A stretch of 64,000 bases of DNA. Origin: Lachnospiraceae bacterium MD308. Lineage in GTDB: Bacteria; Bacillota; Clostridia; Lachnospirales; Lachnospiraceae. Every line of letters starts with the position of its first letter. Within the stretch, counting starts at the first letter, position 1. Made by a program: the position numbers and the translations under genes. Positions 8,805 to 62,385 of the stretch are shown here, one piece after another. The notes under the pieces were generated by a model. That model searched no databases. It was given only the letters and a program-made list of their open reading frames with translations, and was not told where the DNA came from. The DNA is taken from contig KE159796.1 in assembly GCA_000403475.2 (NCBI GenBank), positions 405,736 to 469,735 of the forward strand, given 5' to 3'.

Positions 8805-8813
8805 CCAAATTAT
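8805..8813 (+). promoter_or_regulatory. Core-gene motif CCAAATTAT
   Basis: 44 bases before ATG 8849. Similar motifs stand 30-48 bases before about twenty core genes. Here the whole leader up to AATCATTAAAGGAGGA is nearly the same as before 18186 and 18936. Confidence 0.6.
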
Positions 8814-8848
8814 CCTTGAAAAGAAAATCATTAAAGGAGGATTTTGTC

Positions 8849-9541
8849 ATGAATGGAAAAAAGAAATTTGACAGAAACAAGGTACAGGGATTGATTGACA
8901 TGAAAGACTGGAAAGGACTGCGGGAATATGATTTCCGTGGTGTGGATCTGAGCAGTATGTACTTTTGGCAGGCGGAGCTTGACGGCATGGATTTTAGCGG
9001 GGCTGACCTTTATTGTGTGACCTTTAGCGGCACAACCCTGAAAAACGCGAATTTCAGGAACGCTTCCTTACGATGCGTGGATTTATGCAGTTCAATTATT
9101 GGTGGCGCAGATTTCCGTGGTGCGGATATTGCTAGGGTGGAATTCCCCGACATGTATATGGACGGGGTCATCATGGATGAGACGACATCCCACTTCCATA
9201 CGCATTGCCCGGAAGAGGGCGGGTTTACCGGCTATAAAAAGGCGTGTACCCTCACGGAACATCCGTATATTGTCGAGCTGAAGATCCCGGCACATGCCTT
9301 ACGTTCCAGTGCAACAACAAATAAATGCCGCTGTTCGGAAGCGGAAGTGATGTCCGTTACCCGCCTGGATGGCACAGACGATGGCACAGATATTGTGAGG
9401 AGCTGGTGGAACCCATATTTTCTGTATAAAGCCGGGGAAACAGTCAAAGCAGATGGTTTTGATGAAAACCGCTGGAACGAATGTGCTCCTGGTATCCACT
9501 TCTTCATGACGAGGGAAGAGGCTGTAGATTATGTTTTCTGA
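8849..9541 (+). CDS. Pentapeptide-repeat protein with DUF5758-like C-terminus (copy 1)
   Basis: 230 residues from ATG 8849 (AAAGGAGG). Residues 27-120 are pentapeptide repeats of the A(D/N)LXX type (DFRGVDLSSMYF..., ADFRGADIARVEF), which build a right-handed beta helix. Residues about 130-230 form the domain with IPAHALRSSATTNKCRCSEAEVMSV and CAPGIHFFMTREEAVDY, known from phage and plasmid proteins (DUF5758). A paralogue at 18186 is almost identical in the C-terminal domain but much less alike in the repeats. Function unknown; a DNA-mimic or protein-binding role is possible. Confidence 0.8.
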   Translation: MNGKKKFDRNKVQGLIDMKDWKGLREYDFRGVDLSSMYFWQAELDGMDFSGADLYCVTFSGTTLKNANFRNASLRCVDLCSSIIGGADFRGADIARVEFPDMYMDGVIMDETTSHFHTHCPEEGGFTGYKKACTLTEHPYIVELKIPAHALRSSATTNKCRCSEAEVMSVTRLDGTDDGTDIVRSWWNPYFLYKAGETVKADGFDENRWNECAPGIHFFMTREEAVDYVF

Positions 9542-9547
9542 ACATGT

Positions 9548-9573
9548 AAAAGAAGCCGAGAGGCTTCTTTTTT
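9548..9573 (+). terminator. Terminator AAGAAGCC-GAGA-GGCTTCTT
   Basis: Eight-base-pair stem with GAGA loop and T6, directly after the DUF5758 gene. The same stem and loop recur after its paralogue (18854-18882). Confidence 0.85.
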
Positions 9574-9615
9574 GCGCTTTTTTACAGATTACATACGATA
9601 ACAACTTATAACAGG

Positions 9616-9649
9616 AGGCATACAGGCAGACTTCATTTTTTGTATGCCT
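9616..9649 (+). promoter_or_regulatory. Leader hairpin before the 9677 gene
   Basis: AGGCATAC (9616-9623) pairs with GTATGCCT (9642-9649), followed by CTTTCATTTC. It stands between the upstream terminator and the ribosome site. It could be an attenuator or a weak terminator. Confidence 0.35.
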
Positions 9650-9676
9650 CTTTCATTTCATGAAGGAGGAAGAAAC

Positions 9677-10951
9677 ATGAGATTATGGGAAGGGAAAGAA
9701 CCGCAGGAGTTATTAAAAAGGCTACATGAGCTGGATGAACTCACGGGGATCGATTCGGTCATCCAGCCGGGCCAGAAGGTCACGGTCACTGCTACTGCGT
9801 ATGGGAGCGGGCTGTCACGCTGGACGGTGGATGCGGATGATGCGGCTTACCGCGCGCCAAAGATTGCGTCAGGAAGTAAGTTCGATCAGTTCTGCGCTGC
9901 TTTTGAAGGCATGACAGAAGAACTGGAGGCGGATATCTATTCCGTCCGTGTGCTGGCGTATGCGGATACCCAGCCGTACAGGACCTATGACGGGAAATTC
10001 ACTACGCGCTGGTTCAGCATCGATCCGCTTGACCCGTATAACGTGGATAAAAAGACCGGGCAGCCGGTGTTTAAGTTCGAGGAGCTTGTCATCACGCAGG
10101 AAGAGTACAGGATGATGATGGGAACAAAGCTTGCGATCAGGGCAGGAGATGCCGTTTACGCACTGCTGCGGGATGCGCTGATGTCTACAGGGCGCCTGCT
10201 CCTGGATTCCAGCTCTGTATTCAAACGTTCAGACGAGAACGCCCTTGGCTGCGGGATGATGCTTGCGGAGGCGCTTGCAGACCGGGATTCCCTCAAGGCA
10301 CTGACGAGGGGCTCTGGCAGCGGGGTGCGCCCTCTGCTGGCAGTCATGGGCAGCCGTTACAGGTACATCCCGCAGAGCGAGTTTTTTAAGGAAGTGTTCA
10401 AAAATATCGCGGGCTTTGGCATCTACCTGATCGAGAAGTGGTCCATTACGGACGAGCTTACAACTGTGCAGGCCGTGTTGCAGGGAGATCCGGAATACCA
10501 GAAGGGATTCCTTATAACTGCGAGCGATTTTAATGGTACCCCGATGAAGGTATCGGCATTTGGGCGGTTCCCTAACGGTGCAATGGTCGTGCTGAAACAG
10601 AGCAGCATGCTCCATAACAAGGCATCTGTGGACCGCGGCGTAAAATGCCTGTTTGACGGCATGGAAGAAGCGTTTGGGGAATTCGACCAGTTTATTGAAG
10701 ACATGGATGTTGATGCAGTGTTTGACGCAAAGGCCCACAAGAAATGGCTGAGGAATGTCCAGGACCTTATCGGGATGCGGCGTTGCCGCGTGCCTGAAAC
10801 TTTGGAGTGCAACGGGCTTGCGCTGGCAATGACGCTGGCAAAAGATTTAGACGCGGATATCCGCGACAGGAACGGACTCCTGTACAGCATATGGAACCTC
10901 TTGCTGGACATCCGTGGAGGATGTACAGGGAAACGTAAAGCAGCAGTCTAA
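9677..10951 (+). CDS. Unrecognised 424-residue plasmid/phage-type protein
   Basis: Start 9677 follows GAAGGAGGAAGAAAC. The sequence is soluble, mixed alpha/beta, without membrane segments or a clear nucleotide-binding motif. Noticeable are WFSIDPLDPYNVDKKTGQPVF, FKNIAGFGIYLIEKWSITDEL and PMKVSAFGRFPNGAMVV. The general layout loosely recalls DUF932-type plasmid proteins but I cannot confirm it. It sits 46 bases before the DnaQ-like exonuclease and may share its transcript, so a role in DNA metabolism is possible but unproven. Confidence 0.7.
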   Translation: MRLWEGKEPQELLKRLHELDELTGIDSVIQPGQKVTVTATAYGSGLSRWTVDADDAAYRAPKIASGSKFDQFCAAFEGMTEELEADIYSVRVLAYADTQPYRTYDGKFTTRWFSIDPLDPYNVDKKTGQPVFKFEELVITQEEYRMMMGTKLAIRAGDAVYALLRDALMSTGRLLLDSSSVFKRSDENALGCGMMLAEALADRDSLKALTRGSGSGVRPLLAVMGSRYRYIPQSEFFKEVFKNIAGFGIYLIEKWSITDELTTVQAVLQGDPEYQKGFLITASDFNGTPMKVSAFGRFPNGAMVVLKQSSMLHNKASVDRGVKCLFDGMEEAFGEFDQFIEDMDVDAVFDAKAHKKWLRNVQDLIGMRRCRVPETLECNGLALAMTLAKDLDADIRDRNGLLYSIWNLLLDIRGGCTGKRKAAV

Positions 10952-10997
10952 GCAACGGGCCAGGGAATACCCGGCCTTCCCATGAAAGGAGAGCATT

Positions 10998-11909
10998 ATG
11001 AAGAATGAATGGAGAAACCAGAAAGAAAACGCACGGAAGATCCTTCCGCTTATCCACAAATACAGGGAAGTGCTCCTTTTTGACACGGAGACGACAGGCC
11101 TCGGGAAGACAGCCAAGATCATCCAGTTCTCAGCCGTGCATTATGCCGTGAAAGAAGGGTATGTTTTGGAGGAGGTCCGGAAACTGGATCTTTACATCAA
11201 TCCCCGTGAGCCTTTGGCGGAGAAGATCACAGAGATCACGGGCATTACGGATGCAATGCTGAAAGACGCGGTTCCGGAAGAGGAGGCTGCGCCGGTTATT
11301 TTTGGGCTCCTCGGATCCTGCGGGATATGGGCGGCATATAACAGCCCGTTTGACCTGCGTATGCTGGCACAGATGTCAGCGCGTACCGGGCAGCCATTTA
11401 AACAGCATCCCTGCGTGGATGTCCTTGAAATGGCAAGGGATTTTGTCAGCAAGGCGGATGCGGGTTCCCACAAATTGGGGGATGTCCTCGCAACCCTTTT
11501 CCCAGGCGAGGATTTCCAGTTCCACAGCGCCATTGAGGATGTGCGCGCGACCGCCAGGCTGCTCCCCGTATTCCTCACAGAGTACCGCAAGGTGTATTCC
11601 GCACCGGCAGAGCAGAAACGGCAGCTCAGGCTTGAATGGGCAAAGCCGTGGCAGAACCCCAAGATGCCGTCACAGCAGCGTATACGCCTGATGCTCAATG
11701 AAGGGCAGTACGGTGACATCTACTGGGATATCGTAGGGCACTGCTGGGGCTGCAAGGCGACAAAGAGTGCAAAGGCATTGTTCGGGAGCATAGACCTGGC
11801 GAACATCGAAACCCAGGTCCTTAACCGTTACGGATGGAAGTTCGACGCGAAGGATATGTCGGCATTGTCAAAAAACTGGCTGGCTGAACTCCGTAAAAAA
11901 TCTGCATGA
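10998..11909 (+). CDS. DnaQ-like DEDDh 3'-5' exonuclease
   Basis: 303 residues; ribosome site GAAAGGAG. The DEDDh motifs are complete: D29-T-E31 in LLFDTETTGLG, N115-SPF-D119 and H176-SAIE-D181. These are the catalytic residues of DNA polymerase III epsilon-type proofreaders. The C-terminal 100 residues are extra, with WAKPWQNPKMPSQQR and WDIVGHCWGCKATKSAK, probably a partner- or DNA-binding part. It may proofread for an element-encoded polymerase outside the window or degrade DNA ends. Confidence 0.85.
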   Translation: MKNEWRNQKENARKILPLIHKYREVLLFDTETTGLGKTAKIIQFSAVHYAVKEGYVLEEVRKLDLYINPREPLAEKITEITGITDAMLKDAVPEEEAAPVIFGLLGSCGIWAAYNSPFDLRMLAQMSARTGQPFKQHPCVDVLEMARDFVSKADAGSHKLGDVLATLFPGEDFQFHSAIEDVRATARLLPVFLTEYRKVYSAPAEQKRQLRLEWAKPWQNPKMPSQQRIRLMLNEGQYGDIYWDIVGHCWGCKATKSAKALFGSIDLANIETQVLNRYGWKFDAKDMSALSKNWLAELRKKSA

Positions 11910-11910
11910 A

Positions 11911-11934
11911 AAGAAGCCGGAAGGCTTCTTTTTG
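11911..11934 (+). terminator. Terminator AAGAAGCC-GGAA-GGCTTCTT
   Basis: Eight-base-pair stem with T5, immediately after the exonuclease stop codon. Confidence 0.85.
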
Positions 11935-11941
11935 TGTTCGG

Positions 11942-11950
11942 CCAAATTGT
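11942..11950 (+). promoter_or_regulatory. Core-gene motif CCAAATTGT
   Basis: 39 bases before ATG 11981, directly after a terminator T tract, as in several other copies. Confidence 0.5.
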
Positions 11951-11980
11951 GTAAAACAGTCAGTAAAGGAGGCTCTTATT

Positions 11981-12145
11981 ATGTCTGTGAAACAAGTATG
12001 CGGCACTGCGTTCGCCGCCCTTGCGTTTGTATTCTTCCTTGGGGCATTAGGAGGATATGAGGCAGGCAATTACGGATTTTTGTCCTTGGCCAGGCTGCTG
12101 GCCGTGCCGGGCATGTTTGCGTTCCTGGCTTTTTTGTGCAAATGA
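11981..12145 (+). CDS. Small two-helix membrane protein
   Basis: 54 residues with AAAGGAGG ribosome site. Hydrophobic segments FAALAFVFFLGALGG and LARLLAVPGMFAFLAFLC are separated by a short loop. No family recognised. It has its own motif upstream and terminator downstream, so it is a single-gene unit. Confidence 0.6.
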   Translation: MSVKQVCGTAFAALAFVFFLGALGGYEAGNYGFLSLARLLAVPGMFAFLAFLCK

Positions 12146-12149
12146 CTTT

Positions 12150-12187
12150 CAGTGTCTGGATTTTTCCTGACACTGATTTTTTTTCGC
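12150..12187 (+). terminator. Terminator CAGTGTC/GACACTG with T8
   Basis: Seven-base-pair stem followed by ATTTTTTTT, just after the small membrane protein. Confidence 0.8.
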
Positions 12188-12196
12188 CCAGATTGT
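12188..12196 (+). promoter_or_regulatory. Core-gene motif variant CCAGATTGT
   Basis: 44 bases before ATG 12232, again at the end of a terminator T tract. Confidence 0.45.
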
Positions 12197-12231
12197 AACT
12201 GTGCCTGCGGGCAGGGAAGGAGGGATGGAAA

Positions 12232-12454
12232 ATGGCGTGGACGGTTTATAACAAATACCATGCGCGGAAGGAATCGTTGGACGGGCATACGTTTGATTCC
12301 GCCAAGGGAGCGCGCCTATTTCGCGGATTTCGTATACCGGGACAAGGCTGGGAACTGCGTGGCAGAGGATGCCAAAGGGGTACGCACGAAGGAGTATGTC
12401 ATCAAGAGGAAACTCATGCTGCATGTCTACGGGATCCGGATCACGGAGATCTGA
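12232..12454 (+). pseudogene. DUF1064-family gene with internal deletion and frameshift
   Basis: The start frame reads [28 protein letters not shown], the standard N-terminus of DUF1064 (phage nuclease-like). The matching C-terminus, [20 protein letters not shown] then [20 protein letters not shown], follows directly but in another frame that stops at 12454. About 35-40 middle residues are missing at about 12308-12320. The motif and ribosome site (GGAAGGAGG) are intact. The unshifted frame runs on into the ClpX gene, which would give a chimeric protein if translated. Confidence 0.75.
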
Positions 12455-12546
12455 CATCCCAAAAGAAATGGGGCATGGACGTTTCCGGTACAATGCAGGA
12501 AACATTTAGGAAAGGAGACGGCGCGGGTGGATGCGCCGGTTGGATC

Positions 12547-13797: not shown

Positions 13798-13874
13798 ATA
13801 TTCCGGAAACCAACAGGCTGTGGCTGGGCCGCAGCTTGTTTTGCTCATATTGGCACCAGGAAAGGAAAAGTATT

Positions 13875-15914
13875 ATGAGTGAATGGTTTTGGGCAAAGAA
13901 AGAAAATTTAAGTAAGGTTTGGGGGATTCATTTCCGGAGGGCATCGGGGTATTCTTTTGTACAGTTTTATGCAAAACAGAATGGGTATACGGTTGTCACA
14001 TATGACAATCCAAAACTGCAGAAGGACCGCGAAGAGTTTTTAAAAGAAACTGGAATAGCGCAGGAAGCACAGAAAAATACAGAAGGGGAGCCCCAAGAGG
14101 AGTCCAAGCCGCTTACTTACTGGAACAGGCCGCAGTACAGCAAGCGGGCGGCACTGCCGCTGCGTCACCTGGGCTACATGCGGACGGACGGGGAGTGCGT
14201 CTTCGATTTCACGCAAAAGAAGGATTATTATATGACAGCCAACGGGTTCTGTGACAGCAGGAACCGTAACAGCGGGAAAGTGTCCACGCTGCACAATCTT
14301 GTGATTGATATTGACTGCCATAGCGGGGAGCGTTTTTCAAGGCAGGACATGCAGTTCATTGGAGACTGGCTCTTCCATTTCCTGGAAAAGGAATCAGAAG
14401 GAAACCCGTCTTTCCGTGTTCCGAACACCATCGTAAACACAGGCAGGGGTTTCCAGCTATGGTGGGCGCTGGAAGCATGCAGCGGGAAGAAACTCACATA
14501 TATGTGGAAAGCTGTAACCGGTCATTACATCAGCGTTTTGCAGGGAATGTTCGGGCGTATGGAGGAACTCACAAAAAAAGTTTACGATGATTTCTGCGGG
14601 ATCATGGAATTCAATAAATATGATGCATTCTCAGGGTTTTTGCAGAAGAAACTGGAGCATGTGAAATGGCTGTGCCATTTCAGTGTTGATGCCGCATCCT
14701 CTAAAAAGAAGAGCGGCTTGTTCCGTGTGCCCGGAACCTTTAATTCCCGGGCAGGGGATTTTGGCTCTTTCCGTATCTGCCATGACAGCCCCCTGGATCT
14801 TGTCGGGCTGTTTTTCGATTTCCACCCTGTGACCGGAGGCAGGTACACGCCATTCAAGCCGAGAAAGAAAGGTTCGTGTTGGGATGGGTTCGCGGATAAG
14901 CGCGAAAAAGACCTGACAAAACTTATCACCTACCGGCAGTCAAGAGGGCTTACCTCATGCGGATACCGTGACATCGTCTGCCTCCTGCTCTGCGGGGCAT
15001 ACTGTTCTTCCGGTGAGAGCGTGGATGCGGCGATTGGGGCGGTCAAGCGCATAAACCGTGTTTTTGATGTTCCTATGACGGAAAAAGAACTGCTCGCTTA
15101 TATGGGTGCCTGCCTGCACAAGAAATACAAGTTTGGGAATGACTATATGATCTCTGTGTTGGGAATTACGGAGGAAGAGCAGGGTTTGCTTGGCATCAGG
15201 GGAACAAAAAAAGCAGCAAGGCAGGCGGCACGGGATAAGAAGAAACAGAAGAAGGAAGAGCGCGATGCGCTGATCCTTGAGCTACATAAAGAGGGAATGA
15301 CACAGATGGAGATTGCCTCCCGCACGGGGGCATCCCAGCCTACAGTAAGCCGGATCATCAGATGCGCCGGCTCTGCTTGTGATGGGGATGAGACCTTGGA
15401 ATCCCCGGCTATATCTGTGACACCGGATGCTGTGCCTGATGACAGCGACAGCAAGGAAACTGCCCCCTGCTGCACGGAACTGGCGGTTTCTGGTCCGCCT
15501 ATGGATGGGCTTGCCCCGCGCCGGGGCGTTTATTCAAACCTGCCTTATATAATTTATTCTTATAGCATTGTTCAGCGGGCGCCTCTGGCGGCATCTTTGG
15601 GGCAGGCAGGGCTGGTGAGCGTCATGGAGCATTCCCTTTCCCCGAACGTTCCCTCTGCCAGTGCGCCTTTGCCCGAAGATGCAGGTTTCACGCTTTGCTG
15701 CTTGCCTGCCCCTGACGCTTTGGCTCACGGGCTGCGCCCATCCCCTTGCCCTGGCATTTATCCTGTGTCTTTGCATGTGCATTGTCCTGAAACAGGCGGC
15801 AAGGGCATACAGGCTGTATTTCAAGACATTCTGAACCCGGTTCCGCTGTATGGGGATGCAGGGCGCATCGTGGTGGGCCTTCGTTCCACGTCCTCATTGC
15901 TGCTGTTTCCGTAG
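13875..15914 (+). CDS. Replication protein: archaeo-eukaryotic-type primase domain with HTH
   Basis: 679 residues, ribosome site AGGAAAGGAAAAG. LVIDIDCHSG holds D145 and D147, the metal pair of AEP/PrimPol primases; NTIVNTGRGFQLWWAL and RVPGTFNSRAG are the other conserved strands of replication-initiator primases in Firmicutes plasmids and phages. About residues 470-497 form a helix-turn-helix (MTQMEIASRTGASQPTVSRI). The last 150 residues are low-complexity, rich in Pro, Ala and Ser. Probably primes or initiates element replication; it directly precedes the RecD2-like helicase (30-bp gap). Confidence 0.75.
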   Translation: MSEWFWAKKENLSKVWGIHFRRASGYSFVQFYAKQNGYTVVTYDNPKLQKDREEFLKETGIAQEAQKNTEGEPQEESKPLTYWNRPQYSKRAALPLRHLGYMRTDGECVFDFTQKKDYYMTANGFCDSRNRNSGKVSTLHNLVIDIDCHSGERFSRQDMQFIGDWLFHFLEKESEGNPSFRVPNTIVNTGRGFQLWWALEACSGKKLTYMWKAVTGHYISVLQGMFGRMEELTKKVYDDFCGIMEFNKYDAFSGFLQKKLEHVKWLCHFSVDAASSKKKSGLFRVPGTFNSRAGDFGSFRICHDSPLDLVGLFFDFHPVTGGRYTPFKPRKKGSCWDGFADKREKDLTKLITYRQSRGLTSCGYRDIVCLLLCGAYCSSGESVDAAIGAVKRINRVFDVPMTEKELLAYMGACLHKKYKFGNDYMISVLGITEEEQGLLGIRGTKKAARQAARDKKKQKKEERDALILELHKEGMTQMEIASRTGASQPTVSRIIRCAGSACDGDETLESPAISVTPDAVPDDSDSKETAPCCTELAVSGPPMDGLAPRRGVYSNLPYIIYSYSIVQRAPLAASLGQAGLVSVMEHSLSPNVPSASAPLPEDAGFTLCCLPAPDALAHGLRPSPCPGIYPVSLHVHCPETGGKGIQAVFQDILNPVPLYGDAGRIVVGLRSTSSLLLFP

Positions 15915-15944
15915 TAGACTGGCTGTGTAAAAGGAGAAAAAAGC

Positions 15945-22092: not shown

Positions 22093-22118
22093 GGCTGCCC
22101 AAAGGCAGCCTTATTTTT
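22090..22118. terminator. Bidirectional terminator between 21892 and the PARP gene
   Basis: AAGGCTGCC-CAAA-GGCAGCCTT stem with T5 on plus and the A/T-rich other side serving the convergent PARP gene. Confidence 0.85.
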
Positions 22119-23529
22119 AGCGGAACTCAACGATGTAATTCAGGACAGTTGCTGATTCGTCGTAAAAGACAATCTCGTCATTGCGTAGCGCATTTCCAGC
22201 ATGTGCATGGAGGCAGTCCGCGCCTTTGCCGAGAGTTTCCGTGCGGTAGTTTATGCTGCCGCTCCATGTATGCACATCCCACGGCGTGCCGTAAGCAGTT
22301 GCATACAGGCCCATAAACGCGCAGTCATCATGCCCGTTTGCCCATGACGTGCCATGATAGCTCGTATAGTTCCATGATTTCATGGATGAGGGGGCAAAAT
22401 AAATGCCGTCGGAGAACATCTTGCCGGTAATGATAGCGTCTGGTTTCAGGAGAAGGCCATTCCGGATAATGGATATCCAGTTCTGGTTCCTTGACCCGTG
22501 CCAGAGCTGTTTCACTGTCTTGATGCCGTGCTTTTTCAGATATTGGTCGAAACGTGCCTGCTGTGCCTTCGGAATCACACGGTAAATGTTCTTCACTTTT
22601 GGACGAAGGGAGTCGGAAAGCTTTGAAAGCACCTGTTTTTTCTGTTTTTCCGTTGCCTCGTATACTTCAATGCCTGATGATTCGAAATCGTTTGGCATTG
22701 AGCCTTGATGCGTGGTCATGCCGTCCATGGCCATCAATAAGTCGCTTTCCCTCTGTAGGATTCGAGGGAAGTCGTTTGTGCTTTTTGCCATCAGGTCTCG
22801 GACTCCTGAACCGTCGCCTGTGCGTACAGGACGCTGCAGGATTGCGATCAGCTGCAGCAGTGAATCATTGAATTCTTCCGTGGTCTTCGCCGTCCGCATT
22901 TTCCCGATCAGTGATTCTGATTTTTTGAGGATTGCATGGGTGATCGGCACGCTGACACGCGCTTCCCTGACTGCTGTTTTGGAAAAACGCTGCAGGATTG
23001 CAAACAGTCTGGCAGATGCGCTTTCTGCCTGTTTCTCACATGTTTCTTCCGGCTTTTCAGGCTTGCGTGTCGTTGCATCAGGGGTAAGGTAGACATCTGA
23101 GTTGTCTATATACCCTTTGGAAAGTTTCTCATAATACTTGACCCAGAACATACTGAGAGGGTACATATAAGAGCGCTCTCCGAATAACGCACCTTTCGCT
23201 ACTCCCATGCGCCCGTATGATGCCTTGACTTCGTTGCCGCATGGCTCAAGCTTGTAGAACTTGTATGCATTCCGCCCTTCATCCACACAGGTCAGGTACC
23301 GGCTTGGGTATGAATCGTCAAGGATGCTGTCAGGGAGCGTGTTGCAGTTTTCGGTAATGAAACGTGTCCCGCTCCGTTCCCTGATTGAGTAATTGACTTC
23401 GCCTGCTGTGCCGCAGATTACCTTTACTGTTCCTGATGGCTCTTTGCTGAGCATGGCAGCAACATCTTTGTAAAAGTCCGTTACGTCCACTGTTTTCTGA
23501 GTTCCTTGTGTCTGGTAATAGATTTCCAT
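22117..23529 (-). CDS. Bacterial PARP with WGR-like domain
   Basis: 470 residues from ATG 23529 (AAAGGAGG). Residues about 74-140 resemble a WGR domain, with YGRMG (105-109) where W-G-R is usual. Residues 176-320 resemble the helical PARP regulatory region. The C-terminal catalytic domain has QLWHGSRNQNW (H344), SDGIYFAPS (Y377) and NDEIVFYDESATVLNYIVEF (E452), the complete H-Y-E triad of DNA-dependent poly(ADP-ribose) polymerases. It should use NAD to ADP-ribosylate targets on sensing DNA ends. Such enzymes are uncommon in bacteria. Its leader keeps TCAGATTC and the ATCATTAAAGGAGG segment of the core genes, so it is native to the element, not recent cargo. Confidence 0.9.
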   Translation of the reverse strand: MEIYYQTQGTQKTVDVTDFYKDVAAMLSKEPSGTVKVICGTAGEVNYSIRERSGTRFITENCNTLPDSILDDSYPSRYLTCVDEGRNAYKFYKLEPCGNEVKASYGRMGVAKGALFGERSYMYPLSMFWVKYYEKLSKGYIDNSDVYLTPDATTRKPEKPEETCEKQAESASARLFAILQRFSKTAVREARVSVPITHAILKKSESLIGKMRTAKTTEEFNDSLLQLIAILQRPVRTGDGSGVRDLMAKSTNDFPRILQRESDLLMAMDGMTTHQGSMPNDFESSGIEVYEATEKQKKQVLSKLSDSLRPKVKNIYRVIPKAQQARFDQYLKKHGIKTVKQLWHGSRNQNWISIIRNGLLLKPDAIITGKMFSDGIYFAPSSMKSWNYTSYHGTSWANGHDDCAFMGLYATAYGTPWDVHTWSGSINYRTETLGKGADCLHAHAGNALRNDEIVFYDESATVLNYIVEFR

Positions 23530-23562
23530 TTTCTTTTCCTCCTTTAATGATGTTTTTCTCTT

Positions 23563-23571
23563 CGAATCTGA
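23563..23571 (-). promoter_or_regulatory. Core-gene motif variant TCAGATTCG before PARP
   Basis: 42 bases before the PARP start, followed by a leader ending CATCATTAAAGGAGG like those of the DUF5758 and recJ genes. Confidence 0.45.
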
Positions 23572-23799
23572 GTACAGGCAGACATTAAGATTCCCAAAAA
23601 AGAGCTGATCCAGGAATATGAAAACCGGGGAACGACGGACAGGATACGCAGCCTGCTCTATGCAGCAAAGGCATATTGGGATGAGCAGGGCATAGAACCG
23701 GGGAACACGGAGGATGTGATCCATGAAATCAACCGTCTGCATCCGGACTGGAAACTACATAAGGAAACGGAATGCAAGGTGTTCCCTGTGTGGATGTAG
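23572..23799 (+). pseudogene. 5'-truncated small gene abutting the PARP leader
   Basis: An open plus frame ending at 23799 reads IPKKELIQEYENRGTTDRIR and later VIHEINRLHPDWKLHKETEC. It is clearly protein-like, but no start codon or ribosome site exists; upstream a stop is met where the PARP leader begins (opposite strand). The 5' end was probably lost when PARP arrived or by deletion. Family not recognised. Confidence 0.45.
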
Positions 23800-24848: not shown

Positions 24849-24857
24849 ATAATATGG
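24849..24857 (-). promoter_or_regulatory. Core-gene motif CCATATTAT
   Basis: Minus strand, 42 bases before the Api92-like start. Confidence 0.5.
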
Positions 24858-26072: not shown

Positions 26073-26081
26073 AAAATATGG
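26073..26081 (-). promoter_or_regulatory. Core-gene motif variant CCATATTTT
   Basis: Minus strand, 36 bases before the relaxase start. Confidence 0.4.
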
Positions 26082-27122: not shown

Positions 27123-27131
27123 GCATATTTG
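27123..27131 (+). promoter_or_regulatory. Core-gene motif variant GCATATTTG
   Basis: 41 bases before ATG 27164. Confidence 0.35.
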
Positions 27132-28255: not shown

Positions 28256-28936
28256 GTGAAACAAAATAATATGACGATTGGTAAAGTTTCCGCTATAATA
28301 GCATTAATTTCAGCAATAATTGGCATATTAGCGAATTTAGCAGGAATAACAGAGTTTGTGTTAAAAATGAGGGATAGATATGGGCCAGGCTCAGCGCAGA
28401 CATCGGAAATATCAGAAGAAGAGCCGGGAAAAAAGCAAACAGATGATATTAAAAGGAATGTATACAGTATTGACGAGAATGGGAAAATAACGTTTGTTCA
28501 AGGAACAGAGATTGTTTTAAGAGTGAAGAATAATGAGGGACTTGTAACGACAGATAGTAGAGGTTATCTACAAGGGAAAGGCTCTGAAATAAATTCTGAC
28601 AGTATTTATCAAATACACAATACGCCAGATGATTATAGCGGGTTACAAGGTGTATATGGATTTGTCAGGGTGGCGGCAGATGAAGATAATGCGCCTGTTT
28701 ATGAAAATGCTGATGAAATCCAGTCATGGGAATGCTTTGAATTTTTCAAACATAATGAATATGTTTATATTAAGAGCCAGGCGAATGATAAATACATAAC
28801 ATGCGTTCTGGATGAAGAGGGAGACAGGCTTTGTGCGAGGGGGGAAGAGGTACAGGAGTGGGAATTGTTTTCTGTGTACATACGGGATAAAAAGAAATGG
28901 AAGAATATTTTTACTGATGAAAAAATGGAGTTTTAG
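28256..28936 (+). CDS. Membrane-anchored fascin-like beta-trefoil protein
   Basis: 226 residues from GTG 28256. Hydrophobic helix at about 10-30 (VSAIIALISAIIGILANLAGI), a charged linker, then repeats resembling fascin/beta-trefoil strands: EIVLRVKNNEGLVTTDSRGYL and YVYIKSQANDKYITCVLDEEGD. The second is faintly like the FYFKAVDGKYLSC module of the surface proteins. Probably anchored at the membrane with the trefoil outside or inside. AT-rich, unlike the core. No partner gene is next to it. Confidence 0.5.
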   Translation: MKQNNMTIGKVSAIIALISAIIGILANLAGITEFVLKMRDRYGPGSAQTSEISEEEPGKKQTDDIKRNVYSIDENGKITFVQGTEIVLRVKNNEGLVTTDSRGYLQGKGSEINSDSIYQIHNTPDDYSGLQGVYGFVRVAADEDNAPVYENADEIQSWECFEFFKHNEYVYIKSQANDKYITCVLDEEGDRLCARGEEVQEWELFSVYIRDKKKWKNIFTDEKMEF

Positions 28937-50287: not shown

Positions 50288-50296
50288 CCATATTAT
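50288..50296 (+). promoter_or_regulatory. Core-gene motif CCATATTAT
   Basis: 81 bases before ATG 50369. A separate TATAAT at 50341-50346 is also close to the gene. Confidence 0.4.
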
Positions 50297-54387: not shown

Positions 54388-54396
54388 CCAAACTGT
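54388..54396 (+). promoter_or_regulatory. Core-gene motif variant CCAAACTGT
   Basis: 38 bases before ATG 54426, after a T7 run. Confidence 0.45.
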
Positions 54397-54425: not shown

Positions 54426-54617
54426 ATGAGAGATCTTTCAGAGATGCTGCAGGAGTTTGACGGCATCTGCCGGAGGTATCCAAAGCAGCATGTGGTCACG
54501 CTGTGTAACCGTTATTTGGGGTTGCTGAATGAAGAGGAGTTTCAGGTGGCAGACAAATATTATTACTGGTTCGTAATGGTTGGTGATGCCTCCCGGAGCA
54601 AAGATTTGATTTATTAG
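54426..54617 (+). CDS. Small protein before the UvrD-like helicase
   Basis: 63 residues, AGGAGG site. Helical, with NRYLGLLNEEEFQVADKYYYWF. Nine bases before the helicase gene, so same operon. No family. Confidence 0.6.
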   Translation: MRDLSEMLQEFDGICRRYPKQHVVTLCNRYLGLLNEEEFQVADKYYYWFVMVGDASRSKDLIY

Positions 54618-54626
54618 GAGGTTTTT

Positions 54627-56510: not shown

Positions 56511-56515
56511 TTGAA

Positions 56516-56544
56516 ACACCCAGGAGGAATCCTCCTGGGTGTTT
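56516..56544. terminator. Bidirectional terminator
   Basis: ACACCCAGGAGG and CCTCCTGGGTGT with AAT loop, between convergent helicase and sigma-factor genes. Confidence 0.8.
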
Positions 56545-56546
56545 GG

Positions 56547-57488
56547 TTAATCCTGTGCAAAAATCTGGCTGTGCAGGATACGGGAAGTATCTTCCTGAAA
56601 TACGACATTTCCGGCCTTTTGGCGTTTTGTGTGGGTTTTATTGAAGAGACGTTGTATATCTTTGCTGCTGCCCAGTTTTACAATTGCACGGTTATAGATG
56701 GATTTGACTTCCTTTAAGGGAATCCCGGTTTCCAAATGGATGTTTTCAAAAGATTTTTCCTTATGCCCGTCCAGATTGATGCGCCTTTTGAGAATATCCC
56801 ATTCCTCTGGCTCCAAAACCTCAATTACAGCTCTGCTTATTACTTCCTCCCGCTCCTGTGCAAGCATCATATCTTCCGGATTCGGTATTTTGGATACGAT
56901 TTGCGTACAGCTCTCATCGTCATCTACCGCGACATAATTTGTGTTATACCGGTATTGGAGCGTTGACCGTACTACTTTTGGGGAAAGCCCCGTGCGCGTT
57001 GCGACCATGTCGTCCGTCCATTGGATTCCCTTCGATTCGTAATGCTGGATTGCAGCTATGACCTTCCGCGAATTCTTGATGTCGTATGGGGAGAGGTGCA
57101 GGGTGTTCTTGGAAAGATATGTAGATATCACCTCCCTGAAATGCCGGACATAGAAGGTGGTAGGCGTGGAGCGCAGCGGATCATAAGAATCCAATTTTTC
57201 GTAGAATTTCTCCGCAAGCCCCTGCTGGATATCCTTCCATGCGTCTGAATCTACGCGGTAGCGGACGAGGATCTGTTTCGCCTCCTTCATGCCGAATTTG
57301 AGGACAGATGCAAATAAGTCGGCTTTGATCTTGTCCTCGTACTGTTCCTCTTCATAAGTGAGTGCCTGTCCGGAAGCACGTTTTTCCTTAAATGTTTCCA
57401 GTTTCTTTTTGCGTAGGTAGAACACAACCTGTTCCTTCGTCAGTGTGAGCTGTCCATAGTCGCCAATTTTTGCTGTTTCGTTTGCCAT
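56547..57488 (-). CDS. Sigma-70-family RNA polymerase sigma factor
   Basis: 313 residues, GAAAGGAG site. Region-2-like FYEKLDSYDPLRSTPTTFYVRHFREVIS, a region-3 helix-turn-helix (WTDDMVATRTGLSPKVVRSTL) and region 4 (EEWDILKRRINLDGHKEKSFENIHLETGIPLKEVKSIYNRAIVKL). The N-terminal 60 residues are charged and not family-like. The core-gene motif is not seen before this gene, so it could be made early and then read the motif genes. That link is inference. Confidence 0.8.
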   Translation of the reverse strand: MANETAKIGDYGQLTLTKEQVVFYLRKKKLETFKEKRASGQALTYEEEQYEDKIKADLFASVLKFGMKEAKQILVRYRVDSDAWKDIQQGLAEKFYEKLDSYDPLRSTPTTFYVRHFREVISTYLSKNTLHLSPYDIKNSRKVIAAIQHYESKGIQWTDDMVATRTGLSPKVVRSTLQYRYNTNYVAVDDDESCTQIVSKIPNPEDMMLAQEREEVISRAVIEVLEPEEWDILKRRINLDGHKEKSFENIHLETGIPLKEVKSIYNRAIVKLGSSKDIQRLFNKTHTKRQKAGNVVFQEDTSRILHSQIFAQD

Positions 57489-57640
57489 AAAACATGTCTC
57501 CTTTCGATTTTTTGCCGCAACATATCCATAGCGTGTTGTGAAGAGGCCCGATAAACATGGAATGAAACTCGCCCTCTCTGTTTAATCTGAGTGAACTTTG
57601 TCTTTTTGGTGCGGATTCTCCGGTTTTCTGTAAGAGAATC

Positions 57641-57649
57641 CCATATTGT
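57641..57649 (+). promoter_or_regulatory. Core-gene motif CCATATTGT
   Basis: 31 bases before ATG 57672. Confidence 0.45.
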
Positions 57650-57671
57650 GGATATTGAAAGGAGGGATTGC

Positions 57672-58829
57672 ATGAAACGATGGAAAAGGATGCTTGCCGC
57701 ATTGTCTGCATGCGTAATGCTGGCAGGAGGGGCTGTGCAGGCATCGGGGGATATGGACCAGGATGTATTTGACGGATGGAATGAAGACAACAGGGAGGCA
57801 GCGCTTGCATCTTTTGAGGCAACGGACTGGGAGGCGCTTGCCGACCAGCTCATCCTTGACGGGAAGATTTCCAAAGGGATACAGACGCGTGATATTTCCC
57901 AAAACGTGGAGGCGCTCAGGCCGCTGGTGAAGGAAACACTGAAAGGCTGCAGCAGCAGGACGAAAGCACCGTCCAGCCAATATGCGCCCCTGATCCTCGC
58001 TATGATAGAAGTCCTCTCGGACGGGAACCCATCAGCGACGGATCCATGCGGTGTGACACAATATTTCTTGACATCCGCGTCTATCAGCAGCCCGGCCTCG
58101 TCTGTCAGGTTCCTGTTCAACCGTCTGCAGGTGATGGAAATAGCATATAACGGGGCACATCAGACGCCTGTGAGCCTCAAAAAGAAAAATGACGGGCTGG
58201 ACGTGGCAGTTGAGGCGGTCATGCTCAGGTCGGATTATGCAAAATCAACAGAGAAGTATTCGAAAAAGGATGCACAGAAGTATTACGAAACGAATAAAGA
58301 GGCTGTTTTTGACCCCATCGGCATTGTGCCGATGACAGATTTTGCTGAACAGGTCGGAAAGCATATTACGGCCGTGGAGACCACTACATCTGCCTCGGTC
58401 ACGTGGAACGGGAAAATGACATCGGCAATGCAGAAAGTCTGTGATGCGGCAAGAAACGGGAAATCCACACGCTCCGCAAAGGCGGGGTACTGTGCCGCGT
58501 GGGTGTCGGGCGTGTATCAGTATGCGCTTGGGTATTACCCGGGGCATAATGCGATTGACTATTGGAAACTGTGGAGTTCCAGCGGCTCAAGGGATTCAAA
58601 GAATATCCCGCCCGGAGCGGCGGTCGTAGGCACGGGATCCGGGACGCAGTGGGGGCATGTAGGGATCTATGTCGGGAATGGACAGGTCGCAGAGAATATT
58701 GGAGGATACCGGGTGATCAGCCTGGAACGCTGGATATCATGGCAGAATAGCAAGCCGTCAAGGATTGCCGGCGAGAAAGGGTGGATTGGCTGGGTATGGC
58801 CTTGTAAAAAAGACTTGAGCAGATCGTAG
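57672..58829 (+). CDS. Secreted CHAP/NlpC-type cell-wall hydrolase
   Basis: 385 residues, AAAGGAGGG site. Signal peptide KRWKRMLAALSACVMLAGGAVQA. Large N-terminal helical part; C-terminal catalytic domain with AKAGYCAAWVSGVYQYALG (Cys), TQWGHVGIYVGNGQVAENIGG (His) and GWIGWVWP end. Cuts peptidoglycan peptides, as wanted for DNA transfer or surface assembly. Confidence 0.85.
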   Translation: MKRWKRMLAALSACVMLAGGAVQASGDMDQDVFDGWNEDNREAALASFEATDWEALADQLILDGKISKGIQTRDISQNVEALRPLVKETLKGCSSRTKAPSSQYAPLILAMIEVLSDGNPSATDPCGVTQYFLTSASISSPASSVRFLFNRLQVMEIAYNGAHQTPVSLKKKNDGLDVAVEAVMLRSDYAKSTEKYSKKDAQKYYETNKEAVFDPIGIVPMTDFAEQVGKHITAVETTTSASVTWNGKMTSAMQKVCDAARNGKSTRSAKAGYCAAWVSGVYQYALGYYPGHNAIDYWKLWSSSGSRDSKNIPPGAAVVGTGSGTQWGHVGIYVGNGQVAENIGGYRVISLERWISWQNSKPSRIAGEKGWIGWVWPCKKDLSRS

Positions 58830-58915
58830 GCACATGCCGGGCTTTGCCTCAAAAAAACAAGGAGCCTCCAGGGCGTGGTATACTGAACCCATCATAAAAG
58901 AGGAGGAACCACAAA

Positions 58916-59815
58916 ATGAGGAATAGTATTATGGAACTGGCGGCTGAGACCCAGCAGGAAATAGAAATCATGGTGAAGGACGTGAAGGGGAGCATGACAT
59001 CCAACGGGGCGCCGTACCAGCGGCTTTCCGTGCAGGACAAGGAGGGGAATATGGCTACATTTCTGCGTTTTGATGAGCCGGTCGATGTGAACGGCCCGGC
59101 AGTGTGCCGGATGCTCGTAGAGGCATCCACATATAACAATAAGCCGTCCTACAAGATCCTGCGTTCAGAAATCCTTCCAGACGCGGATCTTACATGCTTT
59201 TATCCGAAAGCGGAGATTGATGAAAGGTCAGGTTTTGCGGAAATCAACGCCTATTACAAGCGGATCAGGCACCCTGGCTACCGTAAGCTGGTGGGGAACG
59301 TGCTGACGAAAGATGCAGTGAAGTTCCGGACGAAACCTCTGACGGCAGCAGGGGCATTTTCAAGGCAATGCGGGATTATGGAAGCAACCTTGGCACTCTT
59401 ACGCATGGCAGATCATGCAGTTGCAATATTCGGGCTGAATGCGGACCTGATGTATGCGGCAGGACTTTTGTATTATGTGGGCAACATTGATCTTGTGTCT
59501 GATGGATATGCTCCTACAGAAGACGATCTGCTTGCGGGTGAGGGCAATGCGGCTGTGAGGCGGCTTTTAGAGGTGGAAATGGCACTCCGTGCGGACGGGA
59601 TGACAGAGGAAATGCTCCCGAAACGCGATGTGAATGTCCTGCTGCATATGCTGACTTCCCGTTATGGAGGGGTCAAGAGCGCAGTTCCGGAATCAGTGGC
59701 CCTGCGGGATCTCGGGCACATGCTCAAACGCACAGAGGAGGCGAAACAGTTAGTGAAAGGAGCTGTGCCGGGAACGGTTGTGTGCAGCCAAGGCTCGCAA
59801 TTCTTAAGATTATAA
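58916..59815 (+). CDS. YhaM-like OB + degenerate HD protein
   Basis: 299 residues, AGAGGAGG site. OB part (IMVKDVKGSMTSNGAPYQRLSVQDKEGN) as in the YhaM 3'-5' exoribonuclease, followed by an HD-like part in which H...H-D signatures are changed: SRQCGIMEATLALLRMADHAV where HH is expected and AAGLLYYVGNIDLV in place of LLHDIGK. The metal site is probably lost, so it may bind single strands without cutting. Confidence 0.75.
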   Translation: MRNSIMELAAETQQEIEIMVKDVKGSMTSNGAPYQRLSVQDKEGNMATFLRFDEPVDVNGPAVCRMLVEASTYNNKPSYKILRSEILPDADLTCFYPKAEIDERSGFAEINAYYKRIRHPGYRKLVGNVLTKDAVKFRTKPLTAAGAFSRQCGIMEATLALLRMADHAVAIFGLNADLMYAAGLLYYVGNIDLVSDGYAPTEDDLLAGEGNAAVRRLLEVEMALRADGMTEEMLPKRDVNVLLHMLTSRYGGVKSAVPESVALRDLGHMLKRTEEAKQLVKGAVPGTVVCSQGSQFLRL

Positions 59816-59857
59816 GGGAAGGAGGCGCAGGGGCAGGATGCCCCTGCATAAGTACAG

Positions 59858-60373
59858 ATGCTTGTGTTGAAGGAAAACCGGATCAGCTTTATCCAGGCTG
59901 CCATCGTACTTGTGATCATTCTCGCGGAAATCTTTCTCTTCCGTAAAGTGCTGATGAATGCATATATCCCGAGCGAGTCGATGGAACCGACGTTCACGGA
60001 AGGGATGCGGCTGATTGCGACGAGGGAGGATAAAGTGGGGCGAGGGGATGTTATCATCTTCCGGTTTCCGGGAGACCCGTCCGTGCATTACATCAAACGC
60101 GTGATCGGGCTGCCGGGAGACACGGTGGAGATTAAGGAGGACGGGGTATATGTCAATGGGGAAACGCTTGAGGAACCGTATCTCAAGGAACGGATGAAAG
60201 TGCAGGATGAACAGATCTTCGTCGTGCCGGAAGATTCCTATTTCCTCATGGGTGATAACCGGAACAACTCTTACGACAGCCGGGCATGGAAGGAGCCGTA
60301 TGTGGACAAGAAATATGTCGAGGGGCATCCGAGGCTGGTTTACTGGCCGTTAAGCAAGGCGGGCGCAATCTAG
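59858..60373 (+). CDS. lepB: Signal peptidase I
   Basis: 171 residues. One N-terminal membrane helix (FIQAAIVLVIILAEIFLF), PSESMEPTF with the catalytic Ser, HYIKRVIGLPGD with the Lys, and GDNRNNSYDSR. Cleaves signal peptides of exported proteins, likely including the surface protein that follows. Confidence 0.95.
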   Translation: MLVLKENRISFIQAAIVLVIILAEIFLFRKVLMNAYIPSESMEPTFTEGMRLIATREDKVGRGDVIIFRFPGDPSVHYIKRVIGLPGDTVEIKEDGVYVNGETLEEPYLKERMKVQDEQIFVVPEDSYFLMGDNRNNSYDSRAWKEPYVDKKYVEGHPRLVYWPLSKAGAI

Positions 60374-60381
60374 CACGGAAG

Positions 60382-60405
60382 ACAGGCGGAAACGCCTGTT
60401 TTTTG
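60382..60405 (+). terminator. Terminator ACAGGCG-GAAA-CGCCTGT
   Basis: Seven-base-pair stem with T6, after signal peptidase. Confidence 0.85.
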
Positions 60406-60410
60406 TTCCC

Positions 60411-60419
60411 CCATATTAA
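60411..60419 (+). promoter_or_regulatory. Core-gene motif CCATATTAA
   Basis: 48 bases before the leader peptide ATG 60459 and 71 before ATG 60482. Confidence 0.45.
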
Positions 60420-60458
60420 ATACAGCGGCAGAGGCCGCGCAGGAAGGAGGAGGCGGGG

Positions 60459-60515
60459 ATGGCATCCCTGCGAAAACAGCTATGGTTAAAAAGAAACAGA
60501 AGTTCCGGTACATGA
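60459..60515 (+). CDS. Possible 18-residue leader peptide overlapping the surface-protein start
   Basis: ATG 60459 has the best ribosome site here (AAGGAGGAGGCGGGG); the frame MASLRKQLWLKRNRSSGT stops at 60515, covering the start of the 60482 gene. It suggests translational control of the surface protein. Confidence 0.4.
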   Translation: MASLRKQLWLKRNRSSGT

Positions 60516-62242
60516 TACCGGCAGTCCTGCTCGCTTGTTCATCACCTGTCATGGGGGCGGTGCTATGTCCGGCAGCGGAAGTGCTGGCAGCGGCGGAGAC
60601 AGGGCAAATCTTTGAGCTGGTTGACGGCATTGATTTTTCAAAGCCCTTGGATGGGCAGGGATTTAACCGGATCATGACAAGCAGTTCCTCCGCTTTGCTG
60701 GAAGGCGATATCATTGTCGCCGGGGCGCGTCATTATGGATGGATCGGTGACGGCCGGGTTGTTGACCTTGATACAAAAGCAGAGGGTGTTTACGGTTTCA
60801 ACCAGGAGGATGCTTTTTACAGGTTCAAGAAACTGGATCCTGTTTATGAGGTGCCTGTAAACTTGACGGCAGTTTATCATGATGAACTCCAGAGTGTGAT
60901 CCTGCCGGACGGTTTCTCATGGACAGACACCGGGAAGATTGAACAGGTGGGAGAGGCAGTCTATAAAGCAATGTATACGCCGACGAACACGCTGAAGTAC
61001 CATACTGTGGAGGATATCCCTGTCATGGTCATGGTAGGCAAAAAAACAGTTTCCCCATCAATGCCGGATAATGCCTATACCGTGCAGTATAAAGCCGGAC
61101 TGAAACTGGGGGATGTAAAATTGCCGGATGGGTGGTCATTTGCGGAACCGGGTTCCGGATTAAGTGTCGGCGAGGGCATGTATCAGGCAGTCTTTCGGGG
61201 TGATACGGAACATTATGAGTATGATGTCACGCAGAAAGATGTGACAGTGCGTGTAGAAAAGGGGTTCTTGCCCCATCCGTCCCTGACGTACATCCGTGTT
61301 CCGGCTGGCACATATCTCAGCGATGACCTCCTGCCCAATACGGCAGATGGTTCCTATTCATGGGATTCGTCTGTAATAGTCAATAAATCCGGGAGCTATG
61401 GCGTGACTTTCCATCCCAGTGACAAGGTGTCCTATAATGACGAGCCCGGACTGAAGATTTATGTTTATGTCAGTTCGGCACTCAAGGTGCAGAAACCGTC
61501 AGGCAGCAATGGGAACAAGGGAAATACAAGCCATACAGGAAGTACAGGAAATGCGGGCGGTGTAAAAACCCCGGTACAGACGGCGCCCCGTGCGCCCAGC
61601 ACATCTGGCACATTGAAGTCTGAGCCTGTCCAGACAGAAAAAGGCTCTACCCGGATCAGGAAGAATACCAGCGGCTCATATTTGACGGCAAAGACGCTTG
61701 CTGCGACAAATAAAAGCAGCTCGGACATGGTCGTAAAGAAGGATGATGCTGTTAAGGTTACAAGGAAAACGCGGCCAAATGCGTCATCAGCATCCAGAGG
61801 CGGCGCGAATTATGAAAAATTGGAAGACGAGGATGGCAAAGAGTATTATCACTTGTTTGATCCGGCGCTTGGCGCGTTTTATTTCCGCTATGATGACGCT
61901 TTAGGGAAATACCTGAGCTGCAACGCGGACGGAACAGAAATCACAGAAAACCGGGTGGAAATCGAAAGGGCAGAATTTGAGTCATTCCTTAAGGATGCAT
62001 CCCAAACGGCAGCTAGGGCGGGAAGTGATAAGGAGGATACGGACGAAACGGATGAGGCATCAGGGAAAGAAACGGCAGGGCAGGAAGATAGGGAAACAGA
62101 GGCTGAAACTGAGAAAACAGGAATCCCGCTGATTATAAAAATGCTTGCGGTGGTTGCCGCCGCTGCGGTGGCGATATTTGTGGGAAAGAAAAGATCCCAG
62201 ACGGCAGAAGAGCCAGAGACAGGGGAAAACGATCCGCTATAG
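60482..62242 (+). CDS. Secreted, membrane-anchored surface protein sharing a module with the VaFE protein
   Basis: 586 residues. Signal peptide (KKQKFRYMIPAVLLACSS...). Three Ig-like repeats at about 120-330, each with iLPDGfSw...VGEa.YkA. A Ser/Thr/Pro/Gly-rich stalk (330-440), then at about 443-500 the module YEKLEDEDGKEYYHLFDPAL...FYFRYDD..KYLSC that recurs in the VaFE protein (2959-3130). An acidic tail, a membrane helix (IPLIIKMLAVVAAAAVAIFVG) and KKRSQ end the protein. Likely exposed on the cell surface and processed by the adjacent signal peptidase. Confidence 0.8.
   Translation: MVKKKQKFRYMIPAVLLACSSPVMGAVLCPAAEVLAAAETGQIFELVDGIDFSKPLDGQGFNRIMTSSSSALLEGDIIVAGARHYGWIGDGRVVDLDTKAEGVYGFNQEDAFYRFKKLDPVYEVPVNLTAVYHDELQSVILPDGFSWTDTGKIEQVGEAVYKAMYTPTNTLKYHTVEDIPVMVMVGKKTVSPSMPDNAYTVQYKAGLKLGDVKLPDGWSFAEPGSGLSVGEGMYQAVFRGDTEHYEYDVTQKDVTVRVEKGFLPHPSLTYIRVPAGTYLSDDLLPNTADGSYSWDSSVIVNKSGSYGVTFHPSDKVSYNDEPGLKIYVYVSSALKVQKPSGSNGNKGNTSHTGSTGNAGGVKTPVQTAPRAPSTSGTLKSEPVQTEKGSTRIRKNTSGSYLTAKTLAATNKSSSDMVVKKDDAVKVTRKTRPNASSASRGGANYEKLEDEDGKEYYHLFDPALGAFYFRYDDALGKYLSCNADGTEITENRVEIERAEFESFLKDASQTAARAGSDKEDTDETDEASGKETAGQEDRETEAETEKTGIPLIIKMLAVVAAAAVAIFVGKKRSQTAEEPETGENDPL
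61144..61156. repeat. 13-bp palindrome GGAACCGGGTTCC, site 5
   Basis: Exact copy inside the surface-protein gene (codons for EPGSG). Confidence 0.8.
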
Positions 62243-62243
62243 G

Positions 62244-62280
62244 AAGAAACGTCCTTTTTGCTTAAAGAAGGACGTTTCTT
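62244..62280 (+). terminator. Terminator AAGAAACGTCC/GGACGTTTCTT
   Basis: Eleven-base-pair stem, T-rich tail, directly after the surface protein. Confidence 0.8.
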
Positions 62281-62376
62281 TGCCTGTACAGCCAGGAGAG
62301 ATAAGGCTGTGCAATCCCACTGGCTGTGAATGCCTGGAAAGGTGGTCGGGCCTGTAAATTTTGTTTTTCAGGTTCT

Positions 62377-62385
62377 TCATATTAA
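62377..62385 (+). promoter_or_regulatory. Core-gene motif TCATATTAA
   Basis: 48 bases before ATG 62425. Confidence 0.45.

Follow-up and report, generated by a model that had tools for sequence, protein, structure and literature searches.

The analysed stretch (the window) comprises 64,000 nucleotides (nt) of Lachnospiraceae bacterium MD308, positions 405736-469735 of contig C2 in a genome of 4.46 Mb, and lies within an integrative conjugative element (ICE) in which a set of genes is preceded by a short box with the consensus CCAWATTRT. This box is part of a longer, real signal, and we lean towards reading it as a private promoter of the ICE. The whole of contig C2 was analysed, with 915 genes called by a simple script from dicodons and ribosome sites; coordinates that are negative or above 64000 are given on the window scale.

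The ICE is about 168 kb long (about -79.0 kb to +89.3 kb), encloses the window and makes up 3.8% of the genome. A Tn916-type integrase gene (87998-89206) marks its right end, and AAATGGGGTACAAAA is present at both ends (-79.0 kb and +89.2 kb). The end of a metA-like gene adjoins the left end and a similar stretch occurs at the right (the naming of metA and the similarity were judged by eye); the 3' end of metA appears to be the integration site. Its transfer genes include a type IV secretion system coupling protein, a TraG-type P-loop protein and a Mob_Pre relaxase, accompanied by an actin-like protein, a DnaE-type polymerase, a CHC2 primase domain, SecY, a ParB-like protein, and RecJ-like, RecD2-like, UvrD-like and 5'-3' exonuclease proteins. 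As judged from the integrase, relaxase, coupling protein and defined ends, the element is an ICE. A 92.7 kb piece of it (the window and on to 92657) is held in IMG/VR as the virus UViG_2600255140_000004, with 100% identity in four tested genes, yet its gene content is that of a conjugative element. The ICE without the regions -46 to 8 kb and 27.4-48 kb was treated as the core and those two regions as cargo, a partition made after the first box map had been seen.

Placement of the box and the unit around it

The first-pass annotation of the window had listed 19 copies of a YCAWATTRT motif before start codons and suggested a motif search upstream of the element's genes. Such a search, by expectation-maximisation (EM) from random seeds on 63 core upstream regions, recovered CCAtATTgT (also written CCAWATTRT) de novo as the top motif, with a log-likelihood ratio (LLR) of 93.3; the highest of 20 host samples reached 53.6, and the highest of 20 dinucleotide shuffles 51.1. 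The LLR was 82.0 (host, 52.4) once four of the five DUF5758 paralogs of the ICE were dropped (n = 59), and 65.8 (host, 50.2) when all genes with the 19-24 nt spacing were left out (n = 46), each against 30 host samples. As a string, YCAWATTRT matched exactly 14 times in the window versus a shuffle mean of 6.6, a count reached by one of 100 shuffles; with one mismatch allowed it was not enriched there (113 versus 130). The density of matches per kb in the core and the host was 1.27 and 1.48 at 8 bits, and 0.78 and 0.77 at 9 bits. Because density is not raised along the DNA, the signal lies in position rather than in number.

A weight matrix learned from the core upstream regions served to assess position: a match counted as a box if it lay 4-40 nt upstream of the ribosome site, with 8 bits as the threshold unless stated otherwise. 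Boxes were placed before 27 of the 69 core genes, none of the 35 cargo genes and 16 of the 512 host genes (27 of 106 ICE genes if the partition is ignored); in a control interval of 44-80 nt the corresponding genes numbered 5, 2 and 25. Enrichment of the consensus is thus confined to the element. Boxes extend about 79 kb to the left and about 20 kb to the right of the window, and were oriented with the gene in 27 cases and against it in three. At 6.5 bits, 16 of 33 boxes sat 20-22 nt before the ribosome site and the remaining ones 7-33 nt, so the fixed distance that had been proposed describes about half of them. Box position 4 (A or T) tracked the spacing (11 A and 4 T versus 4 A and 11 T; p = 0.027). 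Among the 19 listed copies, nine match YCAWATTRT exactly and eight with one mismatch; those at 27123 and 23563 have three mismatches and are not credible. For the copy at 60411, which had been placed 30-48 bp from a start codon, the distance to the start of open reading frame (ORF) 60482 is 71 nt, an ATG 48 nt away being out of frame by our own count. The motif had also been described as absent from 28-46 kb; the string occurs there at 28266, 30715 and 35741, and the statement holds for placed boxes, of which the cargo has none.

The signal continues beyond the trained matrix. A G at offset 5 after the box was present in 22 of the 27 boxes compared with 354 of 1563 background box matches (23%) and 3 of the 16 host box matches; by class, it was found in 15/15 boxes of the 19-24 nt class and 7/12 elsewhere. 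The dinucleotide T-G followed 17/27 boxes and 110/1563 background matches, and pyrimidine-purine at offsets 4-5 was seen in 22/27 boxes, a count made on the boxes only. Upstream, A or T prevailed at -5 to -3 and T around -16 to -11 (the T-run of a terminator), the other columns being scattered at 0.25-0.45 bits, and no -35 hexamer was conserved across the 27 boxes. In the 19-24 nt class (17 rows), the whole leader was conserved up to the ribosome site. Terminators, called by a rule of our own, lay within 45 bp upstream of 14 of the 27 boxes, at the matching place before 32 of 427 host genes, and before 4 of 31 core genes that lack a box. Divergent gaps, in which a promoter is needed, carried a box in four of nine cases (gaps shorter than 500 bp in the ICE; 6.5 bits). 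The strict unit YCAWATTRTNNNTGRA matched ten times genome-wide, six times inside the ICE and four times outside, with two matches for the reversed control.

Host-type promoters were sought as paired hexamers (TTGACA N16-18 TATAAT, at least 10 of 12 matches). Such sigma-A pairs were found before 94 of the 427 host genes, compared with 13.6 in shuffles, and were at chance both in the core (1/64 against 0.5; none of the 27 boxed genes and one of 37 others) and before cargo genes (1/33 against 1.0). The absence of a normal -35 box before the boxed genes, noted at first pass, is therefore borne out, whereas the claim that cargo genes have standard sigma-A promoters is unsupported for the cargo as a group. 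EM applied as a positive control to plasmid pRUMAL01 (94 upstream regions from 200 of 421 kb) returned TG.TATAAT (TGnTATAAT) with an LLR of 80.4 versus a maximum of 31.6 in eight shuffles, and the method thus detects ordinary promoters where they are present. On all 408 host upstream regions EM gave GC- or T-rich motifs and no sigma-A motif, and one of the 20 host samples gave TggTATaAT; the statement on sigma-A accordingly relies on the paired-hexamer test. The de novo recovery, the orientation, the fixed G, the upstream terminators and the lack of a sigma-A excess together support well the earlier proposal of an orthogonal promoter that defines the element core.

Candidate sigma factors and the reading of the box

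When the genome was searched with the RpoD model, host SigA ranked first (411 bits) and an ICE protein encoded at 72417-73238 (+) second (206 bits for positions 3-229 of the 238 in TIGR02393, short of the RpoD cut-off of 354 bits). Regions 2, 3 and 4 of this protein align with the C-terminal model of RpoD, and its identity to host SigA is 41%. Its -10 helix reads STYACHWIRQAIGRS versus STYATWWIRQAITRA in host SigA (WWIRQAITR in the host, HWIRQAIGR here), with Q437 kept and G at the T440 position. In sigma-70, Q437H and T440I are described as suppressing a T to C change at -12 (PMC2613000). The gene sits behind a hairpin, a T-run and TCATATTAAACAGG (box TCATATTAA followed by ACAGG, with G at offset 5). 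It is adjoined by a gene at 71290-72336 with a typical leader, which encodes a fused deoxynucleotidase (NT5C)-guanylate kinase.

The first-pass annotation had named the sigma factor encoded at 56547-57488 as the possible reader. That gene is sigma-like and, as had been stated, lacks the motif: within 40 nt of it, and likewise of its ICE paralog, no box reaches 6.5 bits; the motif search put a poor CCATGTTTA 49 nt from the former. The two proteins are 56-58% identical to each other, far more divergent from SigA (17-21% identity) than the RpoD-like protein is, and both match Pfam region 4 (E = 4e-4) and, weakly, region 2 (best E = 0.011). The protein from 56547-57488 fell slightly below the cut-off of the NCBIfam sigma70-ECF model (4e-10; 39.5 of 42.9 bits); its single-sequence structure model was poor (mean predicted local distance difference test score 55.9), and the fold matches of this low-confidence model to sigma factors are indicative only. 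Given its divergence and the lack of a box, it is probably not the best candidate, and the RpoD-like protein is most likely the better one, the conserved -35 helix being the main objection to the latter.

We consider it somewhat probable that the box is a -10-only private promoter of the ICE, read by the RpoD-like sigma with positive feedback. The promoter would comprise C at -13, CAWATT at -12 to -7, RTNNNT and G at +1, with no -35 element. Placing CAWATT at -12 to -7 leaves six bases before the conserved G as the predicted start and sets the near-invariant C at -12. Registering the -10 element as WATTRT was tried and dropped, CAWATT being the register that places the conserved G six bases downstream. 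A promoter with no -35 element could fit directly behind the terminator of the preceding gene, and the distance from the start of the leader to the ribosome site would range from about 3 to about 20 nt (29 at the farthest match). The altered -10 helix of the RpoD-like sigma may favour C over T at -12. Because the RpoD-like gene itself lies behind a terminator-like hairpin and a box, the system might work as a switch with positive feedback that governs many of the genes for replication, transfer and maintenance, with inserted cargo left unboxed. The motif with its placement, downstream G and terminators, the lack of a sigma-A excess, and the presence and sequence of the sigma are computed results; the promoter function, the start site, the identity of the reader and the feedback are inferred from them.

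Several observations weigh against this private promoter. Training of the matrix on the core upstream regions inflates the figure of 27/69, the core and cargo were separated only after the first map, and 42 of the 69 core genes are unboxed at 8 bits. When the 95 ICE upstream regions were left unpartitioned, EM found the terminator T-run first (LLR 89), and a seeded run brought the box to 83; the highest value among 20 host samples was 58.3. Of the 12 boxes that do not belong to the 19-24 nt class, only seven have the offset-5 G (p = 0.011). Five of the nine divergent gaps are boxless (cargo contains two of the nine), and the call of a 40-aa gene underlies one of the four gaps with a box. In the RpoD-like sigma the -35 helix, VTRERIRQIENKAL, differs little from that of SigA, and a -35 element would therefore be expected before the boxes, yet none is seen. 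The box of the RpoD-like gene was found by eye and is outside the 27 because its ribosome site is weak. Finally, no close relative that could show conservation was found in the searches reported below.

It is rather unlikely that the promoter is instead read by the divergent sigma of 56547-57488 or its paralog, or that different ICE sigmas in a cascade each read one of two box classes (CCAAATT at 20-22 nt and CCATATT at shorter distances). Both divergent proteins are sigma-like, and the association of position 4 with spacing would fit a cascade; however, neither gene is boxed, their -10 helix is too divergent for prediction, and the class test is weak, being one of several tried with paralogs included. 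Reading by a host sigma, either SigA with an activator or a sporulation-type factor, is quite unlikely. The -10 elements of sporulation-type sigma factors (SigE/SigK) begin with CATA, which CATATT resembles, and several further sigma-70-like loci occur in the host genome. The host part of C2 shows no such regulon, with so few genes boxed and so few of those boxes followed by the G; the strict unit has four matches outside the ICE in the whole genome, and a conserved -35 element is lacking.

Marginally less likely again is that the conserved leader acts as an RNA signal, for processing, translation or antitermination, in readthrough transcripts. The terminators before 14 boxes and the conservation of the leader up to the ribosome site would suit such a role, but boxes stand in four of the nine divergent gaps, where readthrough is unneeded, and the spacing to the ribosome site varies from 7 to 33 nt while G is fixed at offset 5 in 22 of the 27. 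An operator for an element-wide repressor or activator would agree with the distribution of the box over the element and with a helix-turn-helix protein encoded there; it is very improbable for a box that is non-palindromic, strand-oriented (27 versus 3) and free of an excess of sigma-A promoters beside it. Chance, or the copying of one leader along with duplicated genes, is scarcely credible: the leader is common to the five DUF5758 paralogs and one-mismatch copies are not enriched, but the signal persists without the paralogs and without the whole 19-24 nt class.

Promoter and candidate sigma are here predicted jointly, down to one residue (the T440 position) paired with one base (C at -12). 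A wider reading, which we hold tentatively and somewhat short of an even chance, is that the ICE is transcriptionally autonomous like a large virus, with three sigma factors, its own replication genes, a core that has lost host sigma-A promoters, and self-switching through sigma autoactivation and a private -10-only promoter with C at -12, placed before many of its genes and often behind a terminator. Should the private promoter prove real, conjugative elements could shield their genes from host transcription, as happens in some phages, and promoter type would separate inserted cargo from the backbone.

Individual boxes and neighbouring genes

The boxes of the window and the divergent sigma gene are collected in Table 1.

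Table 1. Boxes and the divergent sigma gene in the window
Feature	Position	Strand	Remarks
Box CCAAATTAT	8805..8813	+	Pentapeptide/DUF5758 gene 8849; CCTTGAAAA behind the box; G 8818 as predicted start
Box CCAAATTGT	11942..11950	+	Behind terminator-like hairpin and T-run; gene 11981; offset-5 G absent
Box CCAGATTGT + AACTG	12188..12196	+	Behind T-run; ClpX-like gene 12232; outside the 27 (later start called)
Box TCATATTGG	13845..13853	+	9 nt to ribosome site of gene 13875; offset 5 is A
Box CCAAATTAT + CATTGAAAA	18145..18153	+	DUF5758 paralog 18186
Box CCAAATTAT + CCCTGAAAA	18893..18901	+	Behind terminator-like hairpin and T-run; RecJ-like gene 18936
Box CCATATTAT + GAGCG	24849..24857	-	Gene 24815, uncalled, hence outside the 27
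Box CCATATTTT + AAACG	26073..26081	-	Mob_Pre relaxase gene 26045
Doubtful box CCATATTAA	48188..48196	+	Gene 48208/48226; from 12-mer search only
Box TCAAATTAA + CTATGGAAA	49128..49136	+	Gene 49172
Doubtful, distant CCATATTAT	50288..50296	+	59 nt to ribosome site; 5'-3' exonuclease gene 50369; T-G absent
Box CCATATTAT + GCCTGAAAA	54348..54356	-	Gene 54319; 106 bp gap between divergent genes
Doubtful, weaker box CCAAACTGT	54388..54396	+	Divergent partner 54426; TATAAT overlaps last base of box
Divergent sigma-70-like protein	56547..57488	-	Paralog at -48574..-47672; rival reader
Box CCATATTGT	57641..57649	+	Gene 57672; gap divergent from sigma gene 57488; offset-5 G absent
Box TCATATTAA + GTTCG	62377..62385	+	Gene 62425

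The five pentapeptide-repeat/DUF5758 paralogs of the ICE lie at -71167, -52004, -51222, 8849 and 18186, and their leaders are near-identical, with a CCAAATTAT-like box, TGAAAA or TGAATA, CATTA and AGGAGG. Two 305-aa genes in opposite orientation, at -30223..-29306 (+) and -23478..-22561 (-), share their first 60 residues and appear tyrosine-recombinase-like by eye; the approximately 6 kb between them is a possible invertible segment. The conjugative element also encodes a protein with a PARP catalytic domain (22117-23742, -). Near the SecY gene at 66443-67747, sortase- and signal-peptidase-like genes were recognised by eye, and together these are perhaps an element-borne secretion set.

Relatives and known systems

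In 299 genomes of the family and 6 of the genus (the own genome included in each), searches with the sigma of 56547-57488 returned the ICE copy and its paralog, with weak matches (E = 2e-7 to 9e-4) in nine other genomes. No match to it was obtained in genome contigs, whether the query was one protein or an alignment of two rows, or in plasmids and phages, and two scans of viral contigs (one limited to 600 patterns) found only the IMG/VR copy, as did searches of viral contigs with three further ICE proteins. The product of ORF 13875-15914 matched itself and one weak hit in 397 family genomes. The RpoD-like sigma found only itself in 391 class genomes at E = 1e-65, and in plasmids (505 records) and phages (287) its best places were all below 60% identity, the best among those listed being about 41%. 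Homologs of DUF5758 occurred in eight others of 115 genomes, seven of which score like a chromosomal copy of this genome, and the class search with DnaE was dominated by ordinary DnaE (346/391). The leader pattern was also tried in the 397 family genomes; it matched the own genome and six others (three genomes for the reversed control), and as by eye none of the six has a ribosome site and start just behind the match, these were taken as chance.

A distant relative is the megaplasmid pRUMAL01 of Ruminococcus albus 7, which shares with the ICE a DnaE (35.6% identity) with an adjoining CHC2 gene, DHH/RecJ-like and sortase genes and a sigma factor of its own; it differs in the ordinary extended -10 element TGnTATAAT found upstream of its genes (200 of 421 kb). 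No ICE with a private promoter set was found in titles and opening lines of abstracts among the papers listed by searches of one open-access library for sigma factors on conjugative elements, most subscription journals lying outside that coverage. Conjugative elements of Clostridium difficile likewise carry sigma-like genes in a Gram-positive setting, and the consensus sequences of these factors "remain to be identified" (PMC7438776); those elements belong to the Tn916, Tn1549 or Tn5397 families, and the accessible text of that source describes no element-wide promoter set.

Element-restricted sigma regulons are already known from plasmid pBS32 and from phages. In phages 7-11/phiEco32, promoters of the phage sigma were predicted from intergenic motifs conserved in one genome (PMC4331800), an approach like that taken here for the ICE. 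Those phages differ in being lytic and in having an anti-sigma factor and early host-type promoters, whereas host-type promoters in the ICE core are at chance. SigN (ZpdN) of Bacillus subtilis pBS32 is described as weakly ECF-like (extracytoplasmic function), with a MEME consensus that includes -35 and -10 elements, autoactivation, a regulon largely confined to pBS32, and a LexA-controlled SigA promoter that starts its expression (PMC6751061). It resembles the ICE system as a mobile-element sigma with an element-restricted regulon and its own consensus, and its autoactivation may have a counterpart in the box before the RpoD-like gene. SigN, however, is plasmid-borne and ECF-like and uses a -35 element, in contrast to the integrated ICE with its RpoD-like candidate and boxes that have no -35.

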